Assembly: GCA_019359375.1 (NCBI GenBank)
Contig: JAHHHL010000061.1
Location: forward strand, 1 to 32,969
Length of the DNA stretch: 32,969 nt
Source of the DNA: Lyngbya sp. HA4199-MV5
GTDB taxonomy: Bacteria; Cyanobacteriota; Cyanobacteriia; Leptolyngbyales; Leptolyngbyaceae
Direction of reading: 5' to 3'
The position numbers were made by a program, and so were the translations under genes. The notes below the pieces were generated by a model. The model made no database searches. It had not been told where the DNA came from and saw nothing but the letters and a program-made list of their open reading frames with translations. Positions 2,447-29,756 of the stretch are shown one piece after another. Each line of letters starts with the position of its first letter. Position 1 is the first letter of the stretch.

Positions 2447-3910
2447 ATGGACATTCAGACACCCGATTGGGTTAAGCACGCCGTTTTTTACCAGATTTTT
2501 CCTGATCGCTTTGCTCGTAGCCAGCAGCCCCGCAAGCGTTTGTTGAAAAATGCCCGTTGGGAGGACTGGAACGCCATGCCCACTCTTCAGGGTTACAAAG
2601 GCGGCGATCTCTGGGGCGTGATGGAAAAGCTGGACTATCTTCAAGATTTCGGTGTTACTGCCATTTATTTCACGCCGATCTTTCAATCTGCCAGCAACCA
2701 TCGTTATCACACCCACGATTATTACCAGGTTGACCCCATGCTGGGCGGCAATCCTGCCTTCAAAGAGTTATTGGAGGAAGCGCATCGACGCGGGATGAAG
2801 GTCGTTTTGGATGGTGTGTTTAACCATGCCAGTCGGGGACTGTTCTTTTTTCATGACATTTTAGAAAACGGTCCCCATTCGCCGTGGGTCAACTGGTTTA
2901 AGATTCACGGCTGGTCTCTGGCTCCTTATACAGGCGACTTTCCCGCAAACTATGAAGGCTGGGCTGGCAACCGGGCATTGCCCGTGTTCAACCACGACAA
3001 TCCCGAAGTGCGCGAGTATTTAATGGAGATTGCCGAATACTGGATCAAGTTCGGTATTGACGGCTGGCGGCTGGATGTGCCGTTTGAGATTAGAACGCCC
3101 GGTTTCTGGCAGGAGTTTCGCGATCGCGTCAAAGCTGCCAATCCCGAGGCGTATATCGTGGGTGAAGTCTGGGGCGACTCACGCGCATGGCTCGACGGCA
3201 CCCAGTTTGATGGCGTGATGAATTACCTCTTTGCAGGTCCCACGATCGCCTTCGCAGCGGGCGATCGTGTGGACATGGAGCAGGTACAGGGACGCGACTA
3301 CCAGCCCTTCCCACCACTGTTTGCCAGAGAATACGGCGAAAAAATGCAGGCATTGCTGGCACTCTACCCCTGGGAGATTCAACTCACCCAATTGAACCTG
3401 CTGGCAAGCCACGATACCGCTCGTTTGATCACGATCGCTGGGGGCGATCGCCCCAGTGTGGAACTGGCAACCCTACTGCTACTCACCTTTCCCGGCGCAC
3501 CCAGCATTTACTACGGCGACGAAGTGGGATTACCCGGCGCCATCGACCCCGATTCTCGTCGCGGCTTTCCCCTAGAAACCGCTTGGGACACCGAAATTTG
3601 GGAATATCACCGTCAACTGATTGCCCTGCGCCATGCCCATCCTGCTTTGAGAACGGGTGATTATCGCGTGCTGTATGCCAAAGGTACAGTCTATGCGTTT
3701 GCCCGTACCCTGGAAGCGGAGACGATCGTCGTTGCGGTTAATATTGGCAACACCACAGGCAAAGCCAGCATTGTGCAAGAAACCGATGCGCTGGAGCGAT
3801 TACCTGAGACAATCATCTTTGGAGTGGGGCAGTTAGAACTCCACACAGGAGACGACCCAAACGGTTTCACCCTGGAGCTACCACCCCGCAGTGGTTGCAT
3901 TCTGTCTTAG
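2447..3910 (+). CDS. GH13 alpha-amylase family glycosidase (neopullulanase/cyclomaltodextrinase-like)
   Basis: This 487-residue enzyme has the GH13 barrel from its first residues (WVKHAVFYQIFPDRFA), with no signal peptide or N-terminal carbohydrate module, so it is likely cytoplasmic. It hydrolyses alpha-glucosidic bonds in maltodextrins or glycogen-derived oligosaccharides. The four GH13 regions are visible: DGVFNH (~122-127), GWRLDVP with nucleophile D210, IVGEVW with acid/base E240, and LASHDTAR with stabiliser D323. The YKGGDLWGV and FDGVMNY segments resemble neopullulanase-type enzymes. A short C-terminal beta domain follows from about residue 400. The stop codon TAG abuts a TA-flanked repeat element at 3910-4034. 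Exact substrate (pullulan, cyclodextrin or maltooligosaccharide) cannot be read from the sequence. Confidence 0.88.
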   Translation: MDIQTPDWVKHAVFYQIFPDRFARSQQPRKRLLKNARWEDWNAMPTLQGYKGGDLWGVMEKLDYLQDFGVTAIYFTPIFQSASNHRYHTHDYYQVDPMLGGNPAFKELLEEAHRRGMKVVLDGVFNHASRGLFFFHDILENGPHSPWVNWFKIHGWSLAPYTGDFPANYEGWAGNRALPVFNHDNPEVREYLMEIAEYWIKFGIDGWRLDVPFEIRTPGFWQEFRDRVKAANPEAYIVGEVWGDSRAWLDGTQFDGVMNYLFAGPTIAFAAGDRVDMEQVQGRDYQPFPPLFAREYGEKMQALLALYPWEIQLTQLNLLASHDTARLITIAGGDRPSVELATLLLLTFPGAPSIYYGDEVGLPGAIDPDSRRGFPLETAWDTEIWEYHRQLIALRHAHPALRTGDYRVLYAKGTVYAFARTLEAETIVVAVNIGNTTGKASIVQETDALERLPETIIFGVGQLELHTGDDPNGFTLELPPRSGCILS

Positions 3911-4034
3911 GGCGTGTCATCAATTAGCTCCGAAACCTTGCAATACCAGCAGTGTCACGCCCGTCCCAACACACCAGGCTAGGGGCTGGAACCCTTGCTG
4001 CAAGCAATGTGTAGCAGTAATTGATGACAGCCCC
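3910..4034 (+). mobile_element. ~125-bp MITE-like element, copy 1 (TA-flanked, at a stop codon)
   Basis: This is one of three related copies, with others at 8770-8895 and 30693-30816. The left end GGGCGTGTCATCAATTA and the reverse complement of the right end, GGGGCTGTCATCAATTA, match at 15 of 17 bases. The dinucleotide TA borders both ends; the left TA (3908-3909) is part of the TAG stop of the GH13 gene. Such size, inverted ends and TA borders fit a non-autonomous element moved by an IS630/Tc1- or IS427-type transposase. No transposase is encoded in it. As a large foldback sequence it could also work as a terminator. Confidence 0.75.
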
Positions 4035-4084
4035 TAGCACCCTTCGAGCATCCCTTCAAATCTTCACCAGAGAGCCCTTAGCCC

Positions 4085-4732
4085 ATGCCGTTGTCACCCC
4101 CCAGCAAAATCCTCGTTGTCCTCAATGGCAAAGGAGGCGTTGGTAAGACGACAACCGCAATCAACTTAGCCGCTGCGTTCGCCGAAACTGATCGCGTCCT
4201 TCTCGTCGATGCCGATCCGCAAGGCTCTGCAACCTGGTGGGCAGGACGGGGCGATCGACCCATGCGCTTTGACCTCAAACAAGAAACCAACCCTGTACAA
4301 CTCACTGCTCTGCGTCAGGGAGAAGATTACGCGATCGTCGTTGTTGATACCCCACCCGCCCTGGCTTCAGACGCACTTGCCGCCGTGATTCCGATCGCCG
4401 ACTACATCCTTCTGCCCACACCACCCGCCCCGATGGATTTAACCGCTCTGATTGAAACCGTCCGATCAACCGTCACCCCCAAAGGCATTGCCCATCGCGT
4501 ACTCCTCACCCGCGTCGATCCCCGTAGCCTGAACGAAGCCGTAGAAGCGCAAAACACGCTCAGAGAATTAGGCATTCCCGCGTGTAGTGCCTTTATCCGT
4601 GCCTACAAGGCACATGAACGAGCAGCACTTGAGGGACTCCCGATCATGCAAATGCACGGCAACAATGCACGGGAAGCCGAAGCCGATTATCGATCGATCG
4701 CAGAGGAAATTCGGCGTGATTGGGAGGGGTAG
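4085..4732 (+). CDS. Small ParA/MinD-type positioning ATPase
   Basis: A 215-residue ParA-family ATPase. It has the deviant Walker [11 protein letters not shown] with the signature lysine K16 and P-loop lysine K21, switch I VDADPQGS (~41-48), and Walker B IVVVDTPP. The protein is short and lacks the N-terminal helix-turn-helix of large plasmid ParA proteins, so it resembles ParF-, McdA- or cargo-positioning ATPases that form dimers on nucleoid DNA. The next gene, 304 bases downstream on the same strand, encodes a basic-tipped coiled-coil protein that would suit the role of its adaptor. No ParB is nearby, so cargo positioning (for example carboxysomes or another assembly) is more likely than plasmid segregation. 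The cargo is unknown. Confidence 0.82.
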
Positions 4733-5036
4733 GGAGTGGGGAGTAGGGAGTGGGGTGTGGGGAAAGTTTTGAGTCTTGAGTAGCGCTTTGCGCCGACAAG
4801 CTAGAGAGTTTTGAGTTGATTCTGACTCCTGGCTTCTGTCTCCATCCTTCATCCCTCATCCCCCACCTCCTGCCTCCTGCCTCCTGCCTTCAAAACTCTT
4901 ACCTCTTGGCGTGTGCGAGTTGGTTCTCAAATGGCAGTATGGTTTGTAGAGATACTTAAACAGGCATCCACACATCGCGTTACCTGAACGGGTATCGATT
5001 AGAGTATTAGTACGATGCATTGGGAGCGGAGAACGC
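4733..5036. repeat. Intergenic region of STRR repeats and the second copy of the 55-bp repeat
   Basis: No gene is seen in this 304-base gap. It begins with GGGAGTG/GGGGAGTA heptamer-like repeats (4728-4762). The reverse complement of the 181-235 repeat follows at 4764-4819. Tandem CCTGCCT heptamers lie at about 4866-4890. The final ~130 bases before 5037 are non-repetitive and would have to hold the promoter of the coiled-coil gene, if it has its own; I cannot pick out a convincing -35/-10 pair. Confidence 0.7.
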
Positions 5037-5576
5037 ATGGCAAGGAGACGACTGTCAGATTTATTGCGCGAGGAAGCAAACAAACCCTCAGATGATTCGG
5101 TGGCGGAACCGCCAGCAGAGGTAACGAAGGAACCGATCGCGCCTAGCAAGTCCCCTGCCAAAGCGACCACTGCTGCCAAAAGTCGATCGACCAAGCAAAC
5201 TGCGGCTCCAGCAGACACTAAACCTATGACGACAAAACCACAGGATGACAGCTTACAACAGCAAATTGCCGAACTCACGGCAGCGTTGGAAGCTCAAACA
5301 GCGACGACTAAGCAATTGCAGACCGAACTGGAGCAAATGCACTCCCTAAAAACGGAACTAGAGAAAACCCGCAAAGAGCTACATGAGCTGACAGCGGCAA
5401 ACGCTAAGCTGACAAAAGAATTGAAAGCCGCACAACCCAAAAGCACACCAACAAGCGCGCTTGCAATTACCAAGGCAAGCTCTTCCGAAGCGTTGAATCT
5501 GGCACCCCCTCCTCCCTCAGGAGCACCCGAAGATTCACTGGCTGCCTTTAATCGCGATGTGGGTTGGTTTGATTGA
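5037..5576 (+). CDS. Coiled-coil protein, candidate adaptor of the ParA-type ATPase
   Basis: This 179-residue protein has four visible parts. There is a basic N-terminal tip (MARRRLSDLLREEA), a disordered Ala/Lys/Pro/Thr-rich stretch (~15-70), a long coiled coil (~72-131, repeated LxxxL/E patterns) and a low-complexity tail ending in an aromatic motif DVGWFD. ParA-family partners typically use a short basic N-terminus to stimulate ATPase activity, and McdB proteins have a disordered segment, coiled coil and an invariant tryptophan near the C-terminus; this protein shows both types of feature (R3-R5, W177). The ATG follows GGAGAACGC, with a GGAG Shine-Dalgarno. I do not recognise it as a named family, so the role as ParA partner is inference from architecture and adjacency. 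Confidence 0.7.
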   Translation: MARRRLSDLLREEANKPSDDSVAEPPAEVTKEPIAPSKSPAKATTAAKSRSTKQTAAPADTKPMTTKPQDDSLQQQIAELTAALEAQTATTKQLQTELEQMHSLKTELEKTRKELHELTAANAKLTKELKAAQPKSTPTSALAITKASSSEALNLAPPPPSGAPEDSLAAFNRDVGWFD

Positions 5577-5674
5577 GCTATGCACGATCGCGATCGCTAC
5601 GGGTGCTCTTAAGCTCCAGGGCAGCAAGCCAATTTGCGGGGGGGTGCGTTGGTTTCAATGGATTGACATCTGGT

Positions 5675-6400
5675 ATGGCAGACAAAAAAGGGCTTCAAAC
5701 CCTGTCAGTAGATATTGGTGGCAGTGGCATCAAGGTGATGGTGCTAGATGAGGCTGGCAATCCTGTGACCGATCGCGATCGCGTCGAAACCCCTCAGCCT
5801 GCCAAACCAGAACCCGTCATCGCTGCTGTTGTTGGATTGGCAAAGGGAAAGGCGTTCGATCGGGTTTCCGTTGGGTTTCCGGGTGTTGTCAAAGCAGGCA
5901 TCACCAAAACCGCTGCTAACCTCGACCCCGATTGGCTGGATGTTGACCTGGCAAGCATTCTGGCTCAACAGTTAGGTAAGCCTGTACAAGTGATCAATGA
6001 TGCGGACATGCAAGGGTTAGGAGCCATTGCGGGTCAGGGCGTTGAGTTGGTCATCACGCTAGGCACAGGGATGGGGGGCGCGCTCTTTCTCAACGGCAAG
6101 TTAGTGCCAAATTTAGAACCAGGGCACCATGAGTTTCGGAAGGGCAGTACCTACGAACAGCAGTTGGGTAACGCGGCGCTAGAAGAAGTCGGCAAAAGGA
6201 AGTGGAACGATCGCCTGAGCAAAGCGATCGCCTCTCTAGAACACCTCTTCAACTACGACGCGTTATACATTGGTGGCGGCAACGCTAAATACATCACGCT
6301 CGACCTCCCCAAAAACGCCAAAATTGTGCCCAACATTTCCGGCTTGCTGGGCGGCATTGCGCTGTGGCGAGAAGAGAAAGGGGTGAGGAGAGAGGGGTGA
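5675..6400 (+). CDS. ROK-family glucokinase, polyphosphate-glucokinase-like
   Basis: From the ATG at 5675 the protein has 241 residues. It phosphorylates glucose, probably using polyphosphate and/or ATP. Visible motifs are phosphate-1 loop DIGGSGIK (13-20), catalytic INDAD with D109, phosphate-2 loop LGTGMGGAL (~129-137), and PNLEPGHHEF, where the histidine-containing ROK signature lacks the CxCGxxGC zinc cluster. The following KRKWNDRL segment resembles actinobacterial PpgK. The frame is open 34 codons further upstream, but the earlier residues are unlike the family, so I use the internal ATG. The last residues (EEKGVRREG) read into a repeat tract and look like a recent C-terminal extension. 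A PF02685-type glucokinase is also encoded at 28704-29756. Confidence 0.8.
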   Translation: MADKKGLQTLSVDIGGSGIKVMVLDEAGNPVTDRDRVETPQPAKPEPVIAAVVGLAKGKAFDRVSVGFPGVVKAGITKTAANLDPDWLDVDLASILAQQLGKPVQVINDADMQGLGAIAGQGVELVITLGTGMGGALFLNGKLVPNLEPGHHEFRKGSTYEQQLGNAALEEVGKRKWNDRLSKAIASLEHLFNYDALYIGGGNAKYITLDLPKNAKIVPNISGLLGGIALWREEKGVRREG

Positions 6401-6597
6401 GGAGCGAAGAGTGAGAGGAAGGCAGGGGGCAGAAGGCGAGGGATGAGGGATGAGGGATGAAGGCTAAAGGCTAAAGGCTAAAAAACTGTAGCTTGCTTTC
6501 CGCAGGGTTGGCTGACTCCCTACTCCCCACTCCCTACTCCTACCCTCTTTACCAGGCAAAAGACAGGTTAAGATAGACAGCGTACTGACTACCATCT
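6401..6597. repeat. STRR repeat tract upstream of tRNA-Ser
   Basis: Heptamer repeats fill this gap: GGGATGA three times (6440-6460), then GGCTAAA three times (6463-6483). At 6484-6510 comes ACTGTAGCTTGCTTTCCGC, a dispersed sequence found again in reverse complement near 20961-20984 and in part at 31142-31165. The segment ACTCCCTACTCCCCACTCC follows. No gene is present. Confidence 0.7.
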
Positions 6598-6682
6598 GGA
6601 GAGGTGGCAGAGTGGTCGAATGCACTCGACTTGAAATCGAGCATCGCGAAAGCGATCGGGGGTTCGAATCCCCCCCTCTCCG
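6598..6682 (+). tRNA. tRNA-Ser(UGA)
   Basis: The 85-nt sequence folds as a class II tRNA. The acceptor stem GGAGAGG pairs with CCTCTCC (6675-6681), and discriminator G follows. The anticodon stem CTCGA/TCGAG encloses a loop containing TGA. The long variable arm (ATCGC-GAAA-GCGAT) is typical of serine tRNAs, and the T-arm GGGGGTTCGAATCCCCC is perfect. CCA is not encoded. A T-run (TTTTTT, 6683 onward) just after the gene may end transcription. Confidence 0.96.
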
Positions 6683-6711
6683 TTTTTTCCCATCTCTACC
6701 CCAACACAGCC

Positions 6712-7653
6712 TTAGTGTGGATTAGACGCTTTGAGCATGTGATACGCGATCAACAGTTGGGTGATCGCCAGGGGATAGCTTTTGAGTGTTTCGCCTGTCG
6801 TGCCAATCACCGTGCCTAACTCTAGATTGCTGTTGCTGTTGAGATCGCACGCTGCCAGCAGATTGGGGATTTCGTCACAGATAAACCGCTCCAGGCGCGT
6901 CACCTGGTCGCTGGTGGCATGTCCGTCAACTTCTAGCACGTCAACGGGTTTGCCCATATCTCGATCGAGACCCAAGCGAATGGCAGAATCGGTATCGGCA
7001 GCGCCTGTGCTCACCACCTGCGTCAGATCTGGGTGGGGAATGTTGGGTCTCAGGATCAGACGCACATTGAGGTGCCCGTTGTTGGTACTACTGGTGTCAG
7101 AGGGGTAAAAGCTCACGACCAGATCTGCCCATTGCCGCTGCGGGCGAATGTATGCGTCAGAATCAGGTTCGCGTTTGACCATTTCTGCGCGCACTTGCTC
7201 TTCGGTGTAGCCCCGCTTTTGGGTATCGCGCTTAATCTTCCACTGGGTTCGCAATTCTTCTGGTGGCGCAAGATAGACTTTCACATCGTAGGCATTCCGC
7301 ACGCCCCGCGTCGAGTAGCCAAGCAACCCCTCTGCAATCACGTATTTGTTGGGCTTGATGTACTCCGGTGGATCAAACGTTCCCGTTGTGTGGTTATAGA
7401 TCGGTTTCAAGATCGGCTGCCCGGTGCGGAGTTGGGAAAGGTGCTGCTGCATGATATCCAGGTAGTTGCAGTCTGGATGGAGCGCGGTGATACCCAGTTC
7501 GGTACGCTGTTTGCGATCGTAGCGATGGTAGTCATCGGTACAAATCACGGTCACGTTTTCGGGGCCCAGAAATTGCACGATGCCCTTTGTGAGGGTAGTT
7601 TTACCAGCGGCACTGTCACCAACGATGCCTAGAATAATGGGGCGATCGGACAT
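6712..7653 (-). CDS. Phosphoribulokinase/uridine kinase family protein (divergent PRK paralogue)
   Basis: A 313-residue P-loop kinase resembling cyanobacterial phosphoribulokinase. Shared marks are the Walker A GDSAAGKT (12-19), VICTDDYHRYDRKQR (~36-50), LKPIYNHTTGTFDPPE, and the EGLLGY segment. True PRK converts ribulose-5-phosphate to ribulose-1,5-bisphosphate in the Calvin cycle and has a regulatory cysteine inside the P-loop (GDSGCGKS). Here that cysteine is replaced by alanine (A16), while the second one is retained (C38), so the usual thioredoxin-controlled disulfide cannot form. Regions after residue 150 also diverge. It is therefore more likely a paralogue with a different substrate or regulation than the main PRK. 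It is a single gene, divergent from comB. Confidence 0.8.
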   Translation of the reverse strand: MSDRPIILGIVGDSAAGKTTLTKGIVQFLGPENVTVICTDDYHRYDRKQRTELGITALHPDCNYLDIMQQHLSQLRTGQPILKPIYNHTTGTFDPPEYIKPNKYVIAEGLLGYSTRGVRNAYDVKVYLAPPEELRTQWKIKRDTQKRGYTEEQVRAEMVKREPDSDAYIRPQRQWADLVVSFYPSDTSSTNNGHLNVRLILRPNIPHPDLTQVVSTGAADTDSAIRLGLDRDMGKPVDVLEVDGHATSDQVTRLERFICDEIPNLLAACDLNSNSNLELGTVIGTTGETLKSYPLAITQLLIAYHMLKASNPH

Positions 7654-23378: not shown

Positions 23379-24179
23379 ATGCAAACATCCACTACCCAAC
23401 AACTCAAACGCGATTACCAGGGAACCGTTGCGATCGCTCAGCGCATTTTGCTGGAACTTTGGCGACGTAAGGTAAGCCTCATCTGCTGGGTCGTGTTTCC
23501 TGCTTCGATTTTGGTGGTGAATGGTCTGATTTTGACGGAGCGTGGACAGCTTTCGACAGGGGAAGCCTTTGCCCAATCGGTGCCGCCTTGCCTGGTAGGA
23601 ACAGCGCTGTTTTTTAGCTGTTTGGGGGGCAGTATTGCGACGATCGTGGCAGAGCGGGAGCAGCGGACGCTGAAGCAACTCCTGATTTCGCCGCTGCGAG
23701 GGATGGCTTACTTTCTGGGTATCTTTCTGGCGTATGGGATGATCGGGGTGGGGCAAACGCTGCTGGTGTATGCGATCGCGGCATTTACTGGCGCTACCTT
23801 TGAGGGATCAGTACCGTTCGCCGCGCTGATTATCGGGTTGAGCATGATGGCATATGTAGGCACAGGTTTTTTTATTGGTGCAAAACTGGCTCGTCGCACG
23901 GAGGATGTCAACGCGTTGATTGCCGCCCTGGGTGTGCCGTTGCTGCTGCTGAGCGGAGCCTTCATCCCCATTAACTTTTTCCCCGAAGCTCTGCGAAACA
24001 TTGCTCACTACAACCCGATCTATCACATGATTGAGGCACTCGCAGCCGCATCTGTAGCCACGATTCGCATGGCAGACTTGATGCCTCACCTCTGGTTTTT
24101 GGTTGGCTTTACCATCCTGACGGTTGCAGCAGGCTGGCTTGCCTATCGAGAAATGCTTCACCGTGAGAGGAGATCGTAG
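23379..24179 (+). CDS. ABC-2 type exporter permease
   Basis: A 266-residue membrane protein with about six hydrophobic segments (for example LICWVVFPASILVVNGLIL, SMMAYVGTGFFIGA, GVPLLLLSGAFIPINFFP) and the ABC-2 motif ERE..TLKQLLISPL in the first cytoplasmic loop. The GAFIPI..FPEALRNIAHYNPIYHMIEA segment is typical of NodJ/DrrB-like permeases. Its stop lies 5 bases before the ATPase gene, so the two form an operon. The start follows repeat DNA. The substrate is unknown. Confidence 0.88.
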   Translation: MQTSTTQQLKRDYQGTVAIAQRILLELWRRKVSLICWVVFPASILVVNGLILTERGQLSTGEAFAQSVPPCLVGTALFFSCLGGSIATIVAEREQRTLKQLLISPLRGMAYFLGIFLAYGMIGVGQTLLVYAIAAFTGATFEGSVPFAALIIGLSMMAYVGTGFFIGAKLARRTEDVNALIAALGVPLLLLSGAFIPINFFPEALRNIAHYNPIYHMIEALAAASVATIRMADLMPHLWFLVGFTILTVAAGWLAYREMLHRERRS

Positions 24180-24184
24180 GGTTC

Positions 24185-25159
24185 ATGCTCCAGATTCAAG
24201 ACCTTTATAAGTCCTACGGCGATCGGGCTGTTTTGCAAAACCTGAACCTGAGCATTGCTCCGGGTGAAATTTACGGGCTGCTGGGACCCAATGGCGCGGG
24301 TAAAACCACCACCATTCGCATTCTCTGCAACCTGCTGACTGCCGATCGTGGTCATGTCATCGTCTCTGGGCACCCCCTTTCCGAAGCAACGAAACCGCTG
24401 ATTGGTCTGGTGCCCCAAGAAAACTTGCAGTACGCCAGCCTCACCTGTGCCGAAAATCTCGACTTTTTTGCCCGCTTGTATGGTCGATCGCGCCAGCAAC
24501 GGAAAGAACAGGTGCCTGCCTGCCTGGATGCCGTGGGCTTACTCTCCCGCGCCAACAGTCCCGCTGAAACCTTGAGCGGTGGCATGAAACGTCGCCTGAG
24601 TCTGGCGATCGCGCTGGTGCATCATCCCAAACTCCTGATTCTGGATGAGCCAACTACTGGGCTGGATATTGAAGCACGCATCGACCTGTGGCGGCTGATC
24701 CGGCAGTTGCAGAGTCAGGGAATGACCATCCTTCTCACAACCCATTTGCTGGATGAAGCCGAGCGATTGTGCGATCGCCTGGGCGTTCTCAAGCAGGGGT
24801 GCCTCCTGGCAGAAGGCAGTCTCGCAGACCTGCGCCAATGCATTACCGCGCAAGAAATTCTCATCGTGCGTACCACAGCAGAAGCGGAGGCGATCGCCCG
24901 TGCCGAAGTCCTTGGCTTTCCCCACCGTCGCTACGGCGATGACCTTGCCTTCTGGCTCCCCGAACCGCTGGAGATGAAGACCATCATCGATCGCTTTGAT
25001 GGCATCCCGCTGGACTCGATCGCCCGCCAACCCGTGCGTCTGGAACACATTTACGATGAAGTGCTGCGATCAGAACGGGATGGGCGATCGCGGGTCTTTC
25101 CAGCGGTTCAGACCTCGGAGGTCTCTGAGACCTCGGAGGTCTTGTTTACACAAAAATAG
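24185..25159 (+). CDS. ABC-2 type exporter ATPase
   Basis: A 324-residue ATPase of the NodI/DrrA group. It has Walker A GPNGAGKTT (34-42), Q-loop GLVPQENL, signature LSGGMKRRLSLA, Walker B LLILDEPTTGLD and switch TTHLLDEAERLCD. A C-terminal accessory domain follows from about residue 215. The final ~15 residues (QTSEVSETSEVLFTQK) are encoded by a palindromic tandem repeat and look like a late addition. It partners the permease encoded 5 bases upstream. Confidence 0.9.
   Translation: MLQIQDLYKSYGDRAVLQNLNLSIAPGEIYGLLGPNGAGKTTTIRILCNLLTADRGHVIVSGHPLSEATKPLIGLVPQENLQYASLTCAENLDFFARLYGRSRQQRKEQVPACLDAVGLLSRANSPAETLSGGMKRRLSLAIALVHHPKLLILDEPTTGLDIEARIDLWRLIRQLQSQGMTILLTTHLLDEAERLCDRLGVLKQGCLLAEGSLADLRQCITAQEILIVRTTAEAEAIARAEVLGFPHRRYGDDLAFWLPEPLEMKTIIDRFDGIPLDSIARQPVRLEHIYDEVLRSERDGRSRVFPAVQTSEVSETSEVLFTQK
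25110..25143. repeat. Two tandem palindromic 15-mers in the ATPase 3' end
   Basis: AGACCTCGGAGGTCT occurs at 25110-25124 and again at 25128-25142, 18 bases apart. Each is a perfect 7-bp inverted repeat around one base. They are coding in the ATPase frame (SEV.SETSEV). Such small hairpins near the gene end may stabilise the transcript or act in termination. Confidence 0.8.
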
Positions 25160-25176
25160 TTCATCCGTTCGCATCA

Positions 25177-25198
25177 ACTCTCGCTTACGCTAGAGAGT
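25177..25198. other. Hairpin shortly before dnaX
   Basis: ACTCTC (25177-25182) pairs with GAGAGT (25193-25198) around a 10-base loop. It lies between the ATPase stop and the dnaX ATG. No T-run follows, so a terminator role is uncertain. Confidence 0.35.
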
Positions 25199-25217
25199 AA
25201 GGATTGGCACTCGATCG

Positions 25218-28200
25218 ATGACCTATCAACCGCTTCATCACAAATATCGTCCGCAGAGCTTTAGCGATCTGGTCGGGCAGGAGGCGATCGCCACAACTCT
25301 AACCAATGCGCTCCAACAAAAGCGGATTGCACCTGCCTACCTATTCACAGGCGCACGCGGTACGGGCAAAACCTCCAGCGCCCGCATTCTGGCAAAATCG
25401 CTGAATTGCGTGAAGTCCGATGTGCCAACCGCCCAACCTTGCGGCGTGTGTGACGTGTGCCAGTCGATCGCCAAAGGTTCCGCGCTGGACGTGATTGAAA
25501 TCGACGCTGCCAGCAATACTGGAGTAGACAACATTCGAGAACTGATCGAGCGATCGCAGTTTGCCCCCGTCCAGTGCCGCTACAAAGTGTACGTGGTGGA
25601 TGAATGCCTGGTCGGAGACTCCCTCATTTGGACTGATCAGGGGTTCTTTCGGATTGATGATCCCACCCTTCTAGGTAAGAACGTTCTTAGCTATAACGAC
25701 GCGCTGAATCAGTGGGAATTTAAGCCTGTCCTTCGCTGGCTTGATCAAGGCATCCGGCAGACGTATCGCATCAAAACCTCAACGCAAGAAATTTGCTGCA
25801 CAGGCAATCACCTCATCAGGACAGAGCAGGGATGGATAGCCGCAAGGGACGTAAAAGAAGGAGCGAAGATACTATCCCCTGCGAATGTGGATGCGGCACC
25901 TTCATTTATAAATTTGGGACAGACGGGCGCATACGTCGCTTTGTCAGAGGGCACCAGTTTAAGGGGAACACCTACGGGCAAAAAAGCTACGACCTCAGTA
26001 CCATTCTTGAACACGCTGAACCGCTTCGTCCGTTCTGCTTGTGTGGATGCGGTGAACGGCTTGAAGTACCTGCCTTCATGCGACAAAAGGGCTACGGTAT
26101 CAACGGTATTTTGTCCCACTGGCAGAACCATCCGTTCAAACCTAAACACGGCATTTGGCAGGCAAGAACTGAAACCTTTGTCTCCAAGTTGGGTAGCCTA
26201 TCACCCGACAGTTTGGGACTTATTTACGGCACCTTGCTGGGCGACTGCGCCATTACCTATCCAAACAAGCACAGCCGCTTTCCAAGGTTATCCTGGACGC
26301 ACGGAATGCTTCAGCGAGAGTGGCTGGAGTACAAAGCAACCCGTTCGTCAGAGTTACGTCCCAAGCTGTGGGTCGCTACCAACCAAGGGTTTGGGGACGA
26401 ATCAATTTGTTGCAACACAGCCTGCCATCCTCAGCTTGTCGAAGTGTTTGCACGGGTTAAACCTGAAGGAGCCAAGAAACGAGTTTCTCTGGACTGGCTC
26501 AGTTGCATTACGTCTGAAGGGCTTGCCTGGTGGTACATGGATGATGGATCGCTTCGCCTCAGCCCTCAAGGGAGTCCAAGCATTCACTTTCATACCGAAG
26601 GTTACTCCGCGGAAGAGAACCAGCTTATCGCTCGCTGGTTTACTTCAAGAGGATACGCAGCGAAAGTACAAGTCTACCGAAGTGTCAGCAGAGGCAAAGA
26701 TTACTACCTTATTTCGATCGGGGCAAAGGCTTCTAGAAGGTTTCTGGAAGAGTTACAGCCCTACGCGATCCCAGCAATGGCATACAAATTTGGAGGTGGT
26801 AGAATCTGTCCGCTTCGCTGGAGTTGAACACGTTTACGATATTGAAGTTGAGGACAACCATAACTTTGTGGCGAATGGTTTGCTTGTCCACAATTGCCAC
26901 ATGCTTTCCACAGCAGCGTTTAATGCCTTGCTGAAGACGCTGGAAGAACCGCCCGATCGCGTCGTCTTCGTCCTGGCAACAACCGATCCCCAACGGGTGC
27001 TACCGACGATTATTTCGCGCTGTCAGCGGTTTGACTTTCGGCGCATTCCTCTGGAGGCAAGTGTCAAACATCTCCGCTCGATCGCTACTAAAGAAACGAT
27101 CGCCATTACCGATGATGCCATCACGCTCATTGCCCAACTTTCTCAGGGTGGAATGCGCGATGCCGAAAGCCTGCTCGATCAACTGAGCCTGGTCGCAGGT
27201 GAAGTCAGCGTCGATAAAGTGTGGGATCTAGTGGGGTCAGTGCCCGAACGCGATTTGATGTCACTGCTGGAGTCGATCGCGCAAGATAACCCCGAAACCC
27301 TGCTCGATAGCGTCCGGCGACTGATGGATCGGGGACGCGAACCGCTGATCGTCCTGCAAAACCTCGCCAGCTTTTATCGCGATTTGCTCATTGCGAAGAC
27401 TGCGCCTGCCCGAAACGATCTGGTCGCACTCACCGCTCCTACCTGGGCGACCCTCTGTGACTTTGCCCAAACCCTGGATCTGCAAACCATTCTGGCAGGA
27501 CAACAGCAACTCCGCAAAAGTGAAGACCAGATTAAAAGCACGACGCAGCCGAGACTATGGTTAGAGGTGACGTTGATGGGGCTGTTGCCGTCGGCGATCG
27601 AGAGTCGGGAGTGGGGAGTCGGAAGGCAGGAGGCAGAGGGCAGGAGGCAGAGGGCAGAAGGCAATTTGGCGATCGCGGCTGGTGGGAGGGTGAGTCCTTC
27701 TAGTCAATCGGAAGAGCCGCCCCAAAGGGAGCCGATCGCGCCAATCATCCCGGTAGAGCAACCAGAGGCGATTGCAGAGCCAGTCGATCGTTCTGTGGAA
27801 GCCGCTCTGCCTGATGTGACGAGCCAGCCAGATAGCGGTGCCAGTAGCGATCTCAGTCAGATCTGGTTAGAAATCTTGAGCCACATTGACCTGAAAGGCA
27901 CCCGCGCCATGCTGAGCGTAAACTGCCACTTACTCAGCCAGCATGACCACGAAATTCTGGTGGGTGTGAAGGCTCAAAGTATGCTCAAGATGATTACGGG
28001 TATGATCCCGCAGCTTGAGAAAGCCGCTGCCAAAACGTTTAAGACGAAAATTAAAGTCTCCCTTCAGGTGGCAGAAGCAACGGCTTCAGCGGCTCCCGCA
28101 ACACAGCAACCGAATGCGATCGCTCACTCACCGTCTGAAACCCATCAGCGCGATCGCCCCACAAACCCATCTCTCCCTGACCCAAACCAGAAATCTAAAC

Positions 28201-28538
28201 CTGAGTTCCCGATCGCGCCAACCGCTTCAGGTGCTCAAACGAACACGAATCTTCAACCTCCCTCAATGCCCAAACAGCCCTCCTCTAACCACGCTATAGA
28301 GGCGGCAGCAAACTACCATACGGCTGATCAATGGCAGCAAGAAGATGATGTCACCCGTGCCGCCAAACAACTAGCTGAATTCTTTGGCGGTAGAGTCGTC
28401 GATATGAGCGACAGTGACACCGTAGCGGAAGCCCCCAAACTAGCAGAAATCGACCCAGCCAGCCTGAAGGAGAAAGCAGCCGAAGCGTTACCAGAAACCG
28501 ACTACGAACCAGACGAAGATGATGATGTGCCGTTTTAG
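25218..28538 (+). CDS. dnaX: DNA polymerase III tau/gamma subunit with an intein
   Basis: The frame encodes 1106 residues; removing the intein (130-559) leaves a 676-residue clamp-loader ATPase, the tau/gamma subunit. Visible are the start YQPLHHKYRPQSFSDLVGQ, Walker A GARGTGKTSS (45-54), zinc cysteines C64, C75, C78, C81, Walker B VYVVDE interrupted by the intein just before CHML, sensor 1 VLATTDPQRVL, and the sensor 2-like GGMRDAESLLDQ. Domain III follows. After ~790 come a repeat-coded linker (RQEAEGRRQRAEGN), a domain with NCHLLSQHDHEILVGVK, and a proline/serine-rich linker ending in an acidic tail DEDDDVPF. Activity requires protein splicing, since the insertion splits the ATP-hydrolysis motif. 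It follows the exporter genes by 58 bases. Confidence 0.95.
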   Translation: MTYQPLHHKYRPQSFSDLVGQEAIATTLTNALQQKRIAPAYLFTGARGTGKTSSARILAKSLNCVKSDVPTAQPCGVCDVCQSIAKGSALDVIEIDAASNTGVDNIRELIERSQFAPVQCRYKVYVVDECLVGDSLIWTDQGFFRIDDPTLLGKNVLSYNDALNQWEFKPVLRWLDQGIRQTYRIKTSTQEICCTGNHLIRTEQGWIAARDVKEGAKILSPANVDAAPSFINLGQTGAYVALSEGTSLRGTPTGKKATTSVPFLNTLNRFVRSACVDAVNGLKYLPSCDKRATVSTVFCPTGRTIRSNLNTAFGRQELKPLSPSWVAYHPTVWDLFTAPCWATAPLPIQTSTAAFQGYPGRTECFSESGWSTKQPVRQSYVPSCGSLPTKGLGTNQFVATQPAILSLSKCLHGLNLKEPRNEFLWTGSVALRLKGLPGGTWMMDRFASALKGVQAFTFIPKVTPRKRTSLSLAGLLQEDTQRKYKSTEVSAEAKITTLFRSGQRLLEGFWKSYSPTRSQQWHTNLEVVESVRFAGVEHVYDIEVEDNHNFVANGLLVHNCHMLSTAAFNALLKTLEEPPDRVVFVLATTDPQRVLPTIISRCQRFDFRRIPLEASVKHLRSIATKETIAITDDAITLIAQLSQGGMRDAESLLDQLSLVAGEVSVDKVWDLVGSVPERDLMSLLESIAQDNPETLLDSVRRLMDRGREPLIVLQNLASFYRDLLIAKTAPARNDLVALTAPTWATLCDFAQTLDLQTILAGQQQLRKSEDQIKSTTQPRLWLEVTLMGLLPSAIESREWGVGRQEAEGRRQRAEGNLAIAAGGRVSPSSQSEEPPQREPIAPIIPVEQPEAIAEPVDRSVEAALPDVTSQPDSGASSDLSQIWLEILSHIDLKGTRAMLSVNCHLLSQHDHEILVGVKAQSMLKMITGMIPQLEKAAAKTFKTKIKVSLQVAEATASAAPATQQPNAIAHSPSETHQRDRPTNPSLPDPNQKSKPEFPIAPTASGAQTNTNLQPPSMPKQPSSNHAIEAAANYHTADQWQQEDDVTRAAKQLAEFFGGRVVDMSDSDTVAEAPKLAEIDPASLKEKAAEALPETDYEPDEDDDVPF
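25605..26894 (+). other. DnaX intein (430 residues; splicing blocks in the dnaX frame)
   Basis: The intein begins with C130 and ends with N559; the next extein residue is C560. Block A is CLVGDSLIWTDQG; block B is CCTGNHLIRTEQGW with the T-x-x-H motif; block F is VEHVYDIEVEDNHNF; block G is ANGLLVHN followed by C. A DnaX intein at this VDE/CHML site is known from Synechocystis. Splicing-type sequence covers only ~90 residues at the N side (to ~25874) and ~34 at the C side (from ~26793). The ~306 codons between do not resemble any domain in this frame. In the -1 frame the same DNA encodes a LAGLIDADG endonuclease (25832-26827). Confidence 0.93.
25832..26827 (+). CDS. LAGLIDADG homing endonuclease nested out of frame within the intein
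   Basis: This 331-residue protein is in the -1 frame relative to dnaX. It has two Cys-rich knuckles, CECGCG (17-22) and CLCGCG (69-74), each followed by a histidine region, which look like zinc-binding DNA-contact units. Two LAGLIDADG helices follow: LGLIYGTLLGD ending at catalytic D138 and GLAWWYMDDGS with D237/D238. A typical LAGLIDADG_2 C-terminus follows (FLEELQPYAIPAMAYKF, ~304-320). The ATG at 25832 comes after AGAGCAGGG, a moderate ribosome binding site, and lies inside intein block B. A TTG at 25793 would add 13 residues. The TGA at 26825 falls just before block F. Its natural target is probably intein-less dnaX, by analogy with known inteins. It appears intact. Confidence 0.82.
   Translation: MDSRKGRKRRSEDTIPCECGCGTFIYKFGTDGRIRRFVRGHQFKGNTYGQKSYDLSTILEHAEPLRPFCLCGCGERLEVPAFMRQKGYGINGILSHWQNHPFKPKHGIWQARTETFVSKLGSLSPDSLGLIYGTLLGDCAITYPNKHSRFPRLSWTHGMLQREWLEYKATRSSELRPKLWVATNQGFGDESICCNTACHPQLVEVFARVKPEGAKKRVSLDWLSCITSEGLAWWYMDDGSLRLSPQGSPSIHFHTEGYSAEENQLIARWFTSRGYAAKVQVYRSVSRGKDYYLISIGAKASRRFLEELQPYAIPAMAYKFGGGRICPLRWS
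27597..27663 (+). repeat. STRR heptamers inside the dnaX coding sequence
   Basis: GGGAGTGGGGAGTCG is followed by AGGCAGG/AGGCAGA/GGGCAGA heptamers. In the dnaX frame they encode the charged peptide WGVGRQEAEGRRQRAEGN at residues ~797-816 (about 367-386 of the spliced protein), between domain III and the downstream linker. The same repeat type and peptide occur in the selD linker. Confidence 0.85.
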
Positions 28539-28703
28539 CTGGTTGGACGCGATCGCCTTGTGTGGCATTGGTTCTAGGAGATTTCTAGCAAACAAAATAC
28601 CCGTAGGGGCGGGTTTGACCCGAACGCGATCGGCTGAAGGCAGCGAGGCTGGCAAAACCTGCCCTCTACCAGATATGAAGAGAATCGGTTCTCCTTGCGC
28701 TTC
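28539..28703. other. Convergent gap between dnaX and glucokinase
   Basis: This 165-base region has an ACCCGTAGGGGCGGGTTTGA stretch (28599-28618) with short inverted elements (CCCG/CGGG), resembling a dispersed cyanobacterial repeat and possibly serving as a bidirectional terminator. No gene is seen. Confidence 0.35.
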
Positions 28704-29756
28704 TCAAAGCTTCGAGGCATACAACGCCGCACCGATTAGCCCTACTGTAGGATTGAGCACAATGTGGACAGGGACAGCTTCTAGCAGGGGCAGCATCCGC
28801 CCTTTATCAATCAGAGAGCTAAGGAAGGTACTGTCTTGAATGAGCGGCAAAATTTTGGGAGCGATGCCGCCAGCCACATACAAGCCGCCATAGGGCAGCA
28901 GTTTGAGTGCCAGATTTCCGGCTTCGGCACCATAGGCATCCACAAACAGATGCATTGTTTGTTCAGAAAGGCGATCGCGCTTCTCTAAGGCAGCTTGTGA
29001 AATGGCAGCGGCTGGATCAACGCTCCTTTCACGACCCGTTTCGCGCTCCCAGGTACGCACGACTTGCTCGACATCGGGTGATTCTTCCGCCAGTTGTCGA
29101 TCGCGCAAGAACTGGTAGATCGCGACGATGCCCTGCCCCGAAACCACTCGCTCGACTGAAAGGCGCTGAATGTTGTGCTTATCCAGCAAATAGCGCGAAA
29201 GCTGAAATTCAACTTCGGTACGCGGGGCAAAATCGGCATGTCCCCCTTCGGTTGGGTACACTTTGTAATCGCCCTCCTGAGCAATGACAAAGCCTTGTCC
29301 CAAACCCGTTCCAGCACCAATAATGGCGATCGGGGCATCGGCTTGAGGTTTTCCAGGCTGTAGCGTGAGTAGGTCTGATGGCTGTAAGCCGAGCACACCG
29401 TACCCAACCGCTGCAAAATCGTTAATGAGGGACACCTGAGCCATGTCCAACTGCTGGCTTAACCGTGTGACACTTAATGACCAGGACAAGTTGGTGAGCT
29501 TTGATGTGTGGTTAAGAACGGGACCCGCGATCGCAAAACACGCCTTCTCTGGTATCGCCGCATACCCTAACGTCTGCTCTGCTTCCATTAGAAACTGCTG
29601 CACCATTGGCACAAGGTCAATGAAGTTGGCGCTCACGTAGCGATTTTCGTGCAGCGTCTTCAACGTTGTCTCTGGAGTTGATTGGCTGATGGCTGCGTCT
29701 ACTAAACGAAGCGCTGTTTTCGTTCCACCAATGTCGCCAGCTAATAATAACGTCAT
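28704..29756 (-). CDS. glk: Glucokinase (PF02685 type)
   Basis: A 350-residue hexokinase-fold enzyme that phosphorylates glucose with ATP. Motifs include LLAGDIGGTKTALRLVD (phosphate-1), CFAIAGPVLN, SLINDFAAVGYG with catalytic D113, IIGAGTGLGQGFVI (phosphate-2), TEGGHADFAPR (substrate binding), ERVVSGQGIV and YVAGGIAPKILP. The length and motif order match cyanobacterial Glk. It differs in family from the ROK kinase at 5675-6400. The ATG overlaps by 4 bases the TGA of a weak upstream ORF on the same strand. Single gene. Confidence 0.92.
   Translation of the reverse strand: MTLLLAGDIGGTKTALRLVDAAISQSTPETTLKTLHENRYVSANFIDLVPMVQQFLMEAEQTLGYAAIPEKACFAIAGPVLNHTSKLTNLSWSLSVTRLSQQLDMAQVSLINDFAAVGYGVLGLQPSDLLTLQPGKPQADAPIAIIGAGTGLGQGFVIAQEGDYKVYPTEGGHADFAPRTEVEFQLSRYLLDKHNIQRLSVERVVSGQGIVAIYQFLRDRQLAEESPDVEQVVRTWERETGRERSVDPAAAISQAALEKRDRLSEQTMHLFVDAYGAEAGNLALKLLPYGGLYVAGGIAPKILPLIQDSTFLSSLIDKGRMLPLLEAVPVHIVLNPTVGLIGAALYASKL

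Follow-up and report, generated by a model that had tools for sequence, protein, structure and literature searches.

How a bacterial intein can hold a homing endonuclease outside its own reading frame is the question raised by a 32,969-nucleotide stretch of DNA from the cyanobacterium Lyngbya sp. HA4199-MV5 (contig JAHHHL010000061.1 of assembly GCA_019359375.1, positions 1 to 32,969), which was analyzed as a whole and is called the window below. On its plus strand, to which all window features described here belong, it contains dnaX (25218..28538), the gene for DNA polymerase III gamma/tau, read as one uninterrupted frame of 1106 amino acids (NF011510, 822 bits) that includes an intein. An original prediction, made from the letters alone, had placed the intein splicing blocks in the dnaX frame and a LAGLIDADG endonuclease, with its own ATG and TGA codons, in the -1 frame. 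Based on the analysis reported here, the element is considered, with a probability of about 0.88, to be a mini-intein overlapped by a homing endonuclease gene that is translated separately.

In the dnaX frame, the N-extein (25218..25604) ends in VVDE, which we take to be a Walker-B-like motif, and the C-extein (26895..28538) begins with CHMLS. The intein between them comprises 430 residues (25605..26894), running from Cys1 (CLVGDS) to a terminal VHN (His429-Asn430) followed by Cys+1, and Cys1, the TxxH of block B, the C-terminal His-Asn and the +1 nucleophile are all present. Residues C1, T66, N68, H69, H429 and N430 show no variation among the 31 inteins aligned, and the Intein_splicing profile (PF14890) gives a single match across DnaX residues 153-559, with 50.5 bits for a cut-off of 35.8. 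In the AlphaFold2 model of this frame, the predicted local distance difference test (pLDDT) is ~95 in both ends, corresponding to the N-terminal half (residues 1-96, 25605..25892; block means of 92-97 up to residue 90) and the C-terminal half (residues 390-430, blocks F and G, 26772..26894) of the splicing (HINT) domain. The 293 residues separating them (97-389, 25893..26771) are predicted to be unstructured, with pLDDT below 50 throughout and block means mostly of 24-31 (~26). The modeled splicing domain was superimposed on the Mtu RecA intein (2imz; Z 23.5, root-mean-square deviation 1.6, 139 aligned residues) and on the Spirulina platensis DnaX mini-intein (7cfv; Z 21.7, 61% identity over 136 residues). 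By its motifs and its model, the dnaX-frame host element looks like a splicing-competent mini-intein.

The nested gene occupies the -1 frame. Its open reading frame (ORF) was listed as 25793-26827 with a TTG start, and initiation at the ATG at 25832 gives a protein of 331 amino acids (25832..26827) terminated by the TGA at 26825-26827; in the third frame of the window intein, the longest open stretch is 87 codons. LAGLIDADG_2 (PF03161) is matched in the -1 frame with 68.2 bits (Pfam cut-off 25), while NCBIfam has no match for the nested endonuclease. Two Cys-rich knuckles are found in its N-terminal part, C17-x-C-x-C ... H41 (25880..25954), in which C17, C19, C21 and H41 are nearly invariant among 25 aligned endonucleases, and C69-x-C-x-C ... 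H100 (26036..26131), in which C69, C71 and C73 are invariant in all 25. They are followed by a first LAGLIDADG motif, LGLIYGTLLGD (26213..26245), whose last residue is D138, and by a second one, EGLAWWYMDDG (26516..26548), which holds D237 and D238; these three acidic residues are the same in 25/25 sequences. The placement of the two proteins in different frames was borne out, with Pfam matches above cut-off in both, as was the claim that the catalytic residues and knuckles are intact. The first ~20 and the last 18 codons of the endonuclease fall in the folded splicing domain, so that both of its ends are dual-coding.

The nested protein was modeled with a mean pLDDT of 85.9, and the best solved matches of this model are I-WcaI (E 5.5e-12) and I-SceI (2e-11), with a template modeling score (TM, target) of 0.74. 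Fold and motifs are those of these two enzymes (PDB 1r7m, 6x1j), both of which are intron-encoded and do not overlap a splicing protein; the knuckles lie outside the match, which in sequence begins at residue 211. By profile, two motifs and predicted fold, the nested endonuclease is a member of the I-SceI/LAGLIDADG_2 group and is predicted to cleave DNA. As I-SceI-type endonucleases are known from group I introns, the insert could in principle be such an intron, removed as RNA together with its endonuclease gene. This seems extremely unlikely, since the host frame is open across the insert and encodes the conserved C1, TxNH, HN and C+1 residues with a HINT fold; furthermore, no RNA element, a group I intron core included, was matched in Rfam at E<=1 in the window from 24000 to 29000 on either strand.

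To what extent this design is shared was addressed by searching 388 genomes of the class at the protein level, which gave matches in 36 (G314 and G377 with a distant relative alone, without spanning host frame), and by a scan of 84,980 species genomes, which gave 54 loci, 44 of them from cyanobacteria (L033-L076) and the other 10 from Bacillus-like genera (L077-L086). A DnaX N-extein is present at 76 loci (L001-L076), with some genomes represented twice and L003 duplicating L002. At all 76, endonuclease sequence is read in the -1 frame with respect to dnaX, and none of these cyanobacterial dnaX inteins has an endonuclease in frame with the splicing domain, as a canonical bifunctional intein would. 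Leaving out L003 and the three loci that end inside the intein (L006, L053, L060), there are 72 complete inteins (61 distinct), every one of which has a length that is a multiple of 3, is free of stops in the dnaX frame and sits between DE and Cys+1. Many assemblies contribute to the set, among them the complete chromosome of Microcoleus vaginatus HSN003 (L050). The same frame at 76/76 loci and a stop-free dnaX frame in 72 complete inteins exclude the explanation that two compensating indels, introduced by sequencing or assembly error, put an in-frame endonuclease out of frame; nothing was found in favor of such errors, and this explanation is refuted. The outcome named as fatal by the original prediction, in-frame relatives with this locus as a lone exception, did not occur among these dnaX inteins. 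The nested design is no lone oddity: every dnaX intein in this set that holds endonuclease sequence has it.

The 61 distinct elements comprise 42 with an intact nested gene, seven that are full-length but carry a stop in the endonuclease and 12 with internal deletions. Decay thus affects the endonuclease but never interrupts the dnaX frame, as would be predicted for a selfish passenger in an essential host gene. The N-terminus of the nested gene also varies, being longer or shorter when L016, L017, L069 and L022 are compared with L018-L020, L068 and L070, with both frames kept in each step; these steps apparently correspond to more or fewer Cys-rich knuckles.

Selection on the two frames was examined in 31 collinear elements of 1290 nucleotides (nt) by p-distance at dnaX codon positions 1, 2 and 3. 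The third position is the fastest in the N-extein (.19/.14/.56), the intein N-part (.28/.18/.54), the intein C-part (.10/.06/.51) and the C-extein (.28/.15/.57). In the middle covered by the nested gene, the values become.18/.46/.26. As dnaX position 2 is endonuclease position 3, the wobble position passes to the other frame where the nested gene begins and back again where it ends, and this shift of the fastest position indicates selection on the nested frame and, in the flanks, on the dnaX frame. The nested endonuclease frame is under purifying selection.

A second test relied on synonymous shuffling of 43 elements (the 42 intact ones and L033), which had been picked for a long -1 frame and not for an open dnaX frame. 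When the endonuclease protein and its codons were fixed, 14 of 12,900 shuffles had an open dnaX frame, with 5.7 stops on average; when the dnaX-frame protein was fixed, the -1 frame was open in none of 12,900 (mean 13.8 stops). Both frames thus stay open more than expected by chance. Strong selection on the dnaX-frame middle was not seen, and apart from the avoidance of stops there is little constraint on this insert. At four-fold sites of the nested frame, the difference is.52, compared with.59-.66 in the intein N-part and the exteins, and within the nested frame the difference is.44 where a dnaX-frame stop could arise and.50 where none could. Identity of the dnaX-frame middle is.42, against.32 after independent shuffles, a gap that shared ancestry alone can explain. 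The proposal that the host intein has adapted to its guest holds solely as an absence of dnaX-frame stops.

The start of the nested gene lies within the dnaX-frame Gly-Trp codons GGA|TGG, the GW following block B (25832..25834). This ATG is preserved in 42/42 intact elements, the Gly codon being GGA in 41 and replaced in one by GCA, a Gly-to-Ala change which still forms the ATG. At other conserved Gly positions of these 42 inteins, codon usage is mixed, with GGA in 22, 24 and 18 at residues 4, 13 and 49. Located 10 nt before the ATG, AGGA (25818..25821) is a possible Shine-Dalgarno-like site; the upstream Arg codon is AGG in 22/42 intact elements, compared with 61/1365 Arg codons in the exteins and 29/224 in intein residues 1-60.

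Instead of internal initiation, the endonuclease could be made as a DnaX-intein fusion via -1 ribosomal frameshifting. The dnaX gene of some bacteria uses ribosomal frameshifting, and the nested frame is indeed the -1 frame. Within the stretch searched, an X XXY YYZ heptamer occurs in 17/42 intact elements, 14 of them at intein position 305. The other 25 have none, so that a conserved slippery heptamer at the frame switch was not retained as a candidate. In addition, some intact elements have a -1 stop one codon before the ATG (in L044, the frame opens at 224 and the ATG is at 227), and the ATG is preserved in all 42. Frameshifting appears improbable on these grounds.

Several observations weigh against a separately translated endonuclease gene. 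The ATG is also present in 29/30 elements without an intact endonuclease, among them 7/7 mini-inteins without any remaining endonuclease match (30 loci inspected); ATG conservation alone is thus no proof of its use, since elements that have no intact endonuclease retain it. Recent loss is a possible cause, as adjacent downstream codons share the bias. Similarly, the upstream Arg codon is AGG in 19/30 elements lacking an intact endonuclease, and the duplex energy with the anti-Shine-Dalgarno sequence is only mildly favorable (mean z -0.79, mean rank.36). A strong conserved Shine-Dalgarno sequence was rejected because of this weak energy test, though AGG is far commoner here than elsewhere. The endonuclease is broken or deleted in 19/61 distinct elements, it is interrupted by a TGA in a second copy carried on contig C8 of the window genome, and 11 of 30 loci fetched by a match to the intein N-domain are shortened inteins of 387-579 nt, outside the first set.

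The broken elements and the broken second copy are what would be expected if the endonuclease frame were a decaying, functionless relic left by a frame shift in an ordinary large intein. Such a relic would need two compensating indels common to all elements, and in-frame dnaX relatives number 0/76. Moreover, 42/61 elements are intact, the substitution pattern in 31 of these is that of purifying selection in the nested frame and the catalytic residues are unchanged in 25/25. This alternative is accordingly judged very unlikely.

With a mini-intein and a separately translated endonuclease gene as the preferred reading, the following mechanism can be proposed. The element would be a two-gene mobile element at the Walker-B-like DE|C codons of dnaX. 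In the dnaX frame, residues 1-96 and 390-430 would fold as a splicing domain and excise themselves, along with the 293-residue unfolded insert, from DnaX. The -1 frame would be a separate gene for a free 331-amino-acid endonuclease of the I-SceI type (LAGLIDADG_2) with two N-terminal Cys knuckles, started most likely by internal initiation on dnaX mRNA at the ATG inside GGA|TGG. The free endonuclease would then cleave the uninterrupted site of a dnaX that lacks the intein, and with the occupied copy as repair template the whole element would be duplicated. Selection would keep the endonuclease protein in its own frame, and in the dnaX frame would mainly prevent stops and retain the splicing residues at the dual-coding ends. 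Translation of the nested gene, splicing in this host, cleavage specificity and homing are the steps that we infer.

The distribution of the element is consistent with mobility. Among six sampled congeners, dnaX is continuous and intein-free at the site in five (88-95% protein identity), the sixth having no full match, and it is likewise continuous in 5/5 other family members tried (77-85% identity). The intein N-domain is matched in 50/388 genomes of the class, including a weak match (32%) in G319. Pairwise identities of the endonuclease follow those of the splicing domain (Spearman.86, 465 pairs) more tightly than those of the host exteins (.48), as expected if both parts of the element move together; these identities are ungapped, the exteins of L062 are perhaps misaligned and the endonuclease and splicing domain share an overlap of ~80 nt.

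Related elements were also found beyond dnaX. The -1 design occurs in three further hosts, gp40 of Xanthomonas phage FoX3 (L087) and two IMG/VR contigs (L092, L094), in which ResIII helicase and Intein_splicing are both matched above Pfam cut-offs. In the FoX3 gp40 helicase intein, the -1 frame LAGLIDADG endonuclease (L087, 2777-3718) is unannotated, and another FoX3 record labels the gp40 protein 'head morphogenesis'. A +1 design is found in L095 (of which L096 is a near-identical second contig) and L098, whose hosts match the phage terminase profile GpA_ATPase with 25.0 and 37.6 bits, respectively, for a cut-off of 25.6. These +1 cases rest on motifs judged by eye, as Intein_splicing is below its cut-off of 35.8 in L098 (26.2 bits) and has no match in L095; their intein starts were set by motif and are perhaps off by about a codon. 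LAGLIDADG_2 is above cut-off in all five nested frames, and each of the five inserts lies, by eye, between DE and a Cys. When the nested protein is fixed, the host frame stays open in 7, 0, 20, 0 and 0 of 1000 shuffles for L087, L092, L094, L095 and L098. In L098, the terminase-like gene spans 3166-6915 and its nested +1 ORF is open over 512 codons, with a long charged tail after the LAGLIDADG part and a Cys motif.

The intein-like genes of L090, L091, L099, L111, L114 and L115, of which L099 and L115 were checked with Pfam, hold related endonucleases in frame; L115 is a UvrD-like phage helicase (1496-4099) whose intein, placed after VDE, contains a LAGLIDADG_2 endonuclease in frame. Other related endonucleases have no spanning host frame, so that the wider family occurs in three contexts. 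The plasmids gave one match, an in-frame endonuclease within an RNA-ligase gene.

In a tree of 49 rows, the -1 nested class, represented by 24 rows (21 chosen cyanobacterial members with L087, L092 and L094), forms one group (99/96), and long branches weaken the remainder. By the approximately unbiased (AU) test, neither a single clade of all nested members (p 0.34) nor one of all in-frame members (p 0.21) nor one of the two +1 members (p 0.595) is rejected. With a one-clade AU p of 0.34, separate origins of the -1 and the +1 nested groups are not supported.

These data bear on how the nested state arose. An intein endonuclease once in frame could have given rise to it through a shared frame switch, as the six in-frame intein relatives would allow, L115 also being placed after a helicase VDE, and as would a single clade of all nested members. 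Pointing the other way, knuckle-bearing non-nested relatives (L088, L089, L093) are, by eye, without spanning host frame and the six in-frame members lack CxCxC knuckles by eye, with a tree weakened by its long branches. A frame switch is consequently regarded as possible but rather doubtful, and out-of-frame invasion by a free-standing endonuclease gene as plausible. Of what the original prediction had proposed, a separate out-of-frame gene under purifying selection in a mini-intein has stood, while the tree does not decide the direction in which an invasion or a switch occurred. It seems somewhat favored that overprinted inteins make up a broad class of selfish elements, which may have evolved more than once and which occupy the Walker-B-like DE|C codons of several P-loop ATPases, namely cyanobacterial DnaX, phage helicases and terminase-like ATPases. 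In this class, the endonuclease would be translated independently from a -1 or +1 frame, so that the homing enzyme would be expressed uncoupled from splicing, and the in-frame middle would be a non-functional filler.

Canonical bifunctional inteins of the PI-SceI and PI-PfuI type likewise combine HINT and LAGLIDADG parts in one element at a conserved site. Their endonuclease is read in frame and forms a middle domain of the excised protein, whereas here it is a separate protein in the -1 frame and the in-frame middle is predicted to be unfolded. Fractured genes, reportedly described by Dassa in 2009, are said to have split inteins flanking a free endonuclease gene; the endonuclease is there also a separate protein in an intein locus, but the host gene is split, while here nucleotides are shared. 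Closer by host gene are the Ssp DnaX intein and the Spirulina platensis mini-intein, both of which reside in dnaX like the window intein. In the portions consulted, one source counts the Ssp DnaX intein among those with putative (complete or partial) endonuclease domains and reports that a mini-intein with the putative endonuclease region deleted splices (+++) in E. coli (PMC3620165), and another used a 150-residue version (PMC3443213); these portions of both sources contain no mention of an other-frame endonuclease for Ssp DnaX.

As far as its consulted part describes it, the ShiLan-type out-of-frame HNH insertion in a phage methylase, in which the authors find neither intein nor intron (PMC11855218), is similar in that a homing endonuclease is out of frame and the host frame is kept open. 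It differs in being of the HNH type, as opposed to LAGLIDADG_2 with Intein_splicing here, and the ShiLan insert would remain in the methylase. Judging from that part, this is the closest published case in the literature searched, and it is not an intein. In the open-licence PMC literature searched, no description of an intein with an endonuclease nested out of frame was found, and the portions consulted of PMC7765530 and PMC5050341 contain nothing on a nested intein endonuclease.

If correct, this reading would change the picture of the intein endonuclease as an in-frame domain of a spliced-out protein and would provide a case of long gene overlap in bacteria in which the comparative signal is clean. 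It would also account for an intein retaining a ~290-residue insert predicted to be unfolded. Homing and splicing would be genetically separable, as one synonymous change of GGA would remove the endonuclease start and leave DnaX and the splicing protein untouched. A survey of host frames only would miss the endonuclease.

The second copy in the window genome belongs to a dnaX-like gene on the minus strand of contig C8 (L110, 3000-5400), which has a divergent nested intein and whose host frame stops ~60 codons past this intein. Several sampled relatives also have a second dnaX-like gene, open over 457-491 codons, with 56-74% identity and no intein at the site (rows G217:C36, G276:C629, G251:C2, G135:C104, G135:C30 and G105:C2). 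Finally, a short tandem repeat (14-nt unit, 2.8 copies) is located at 27622-27663 of the window, within the C-terminal part of dnaX.

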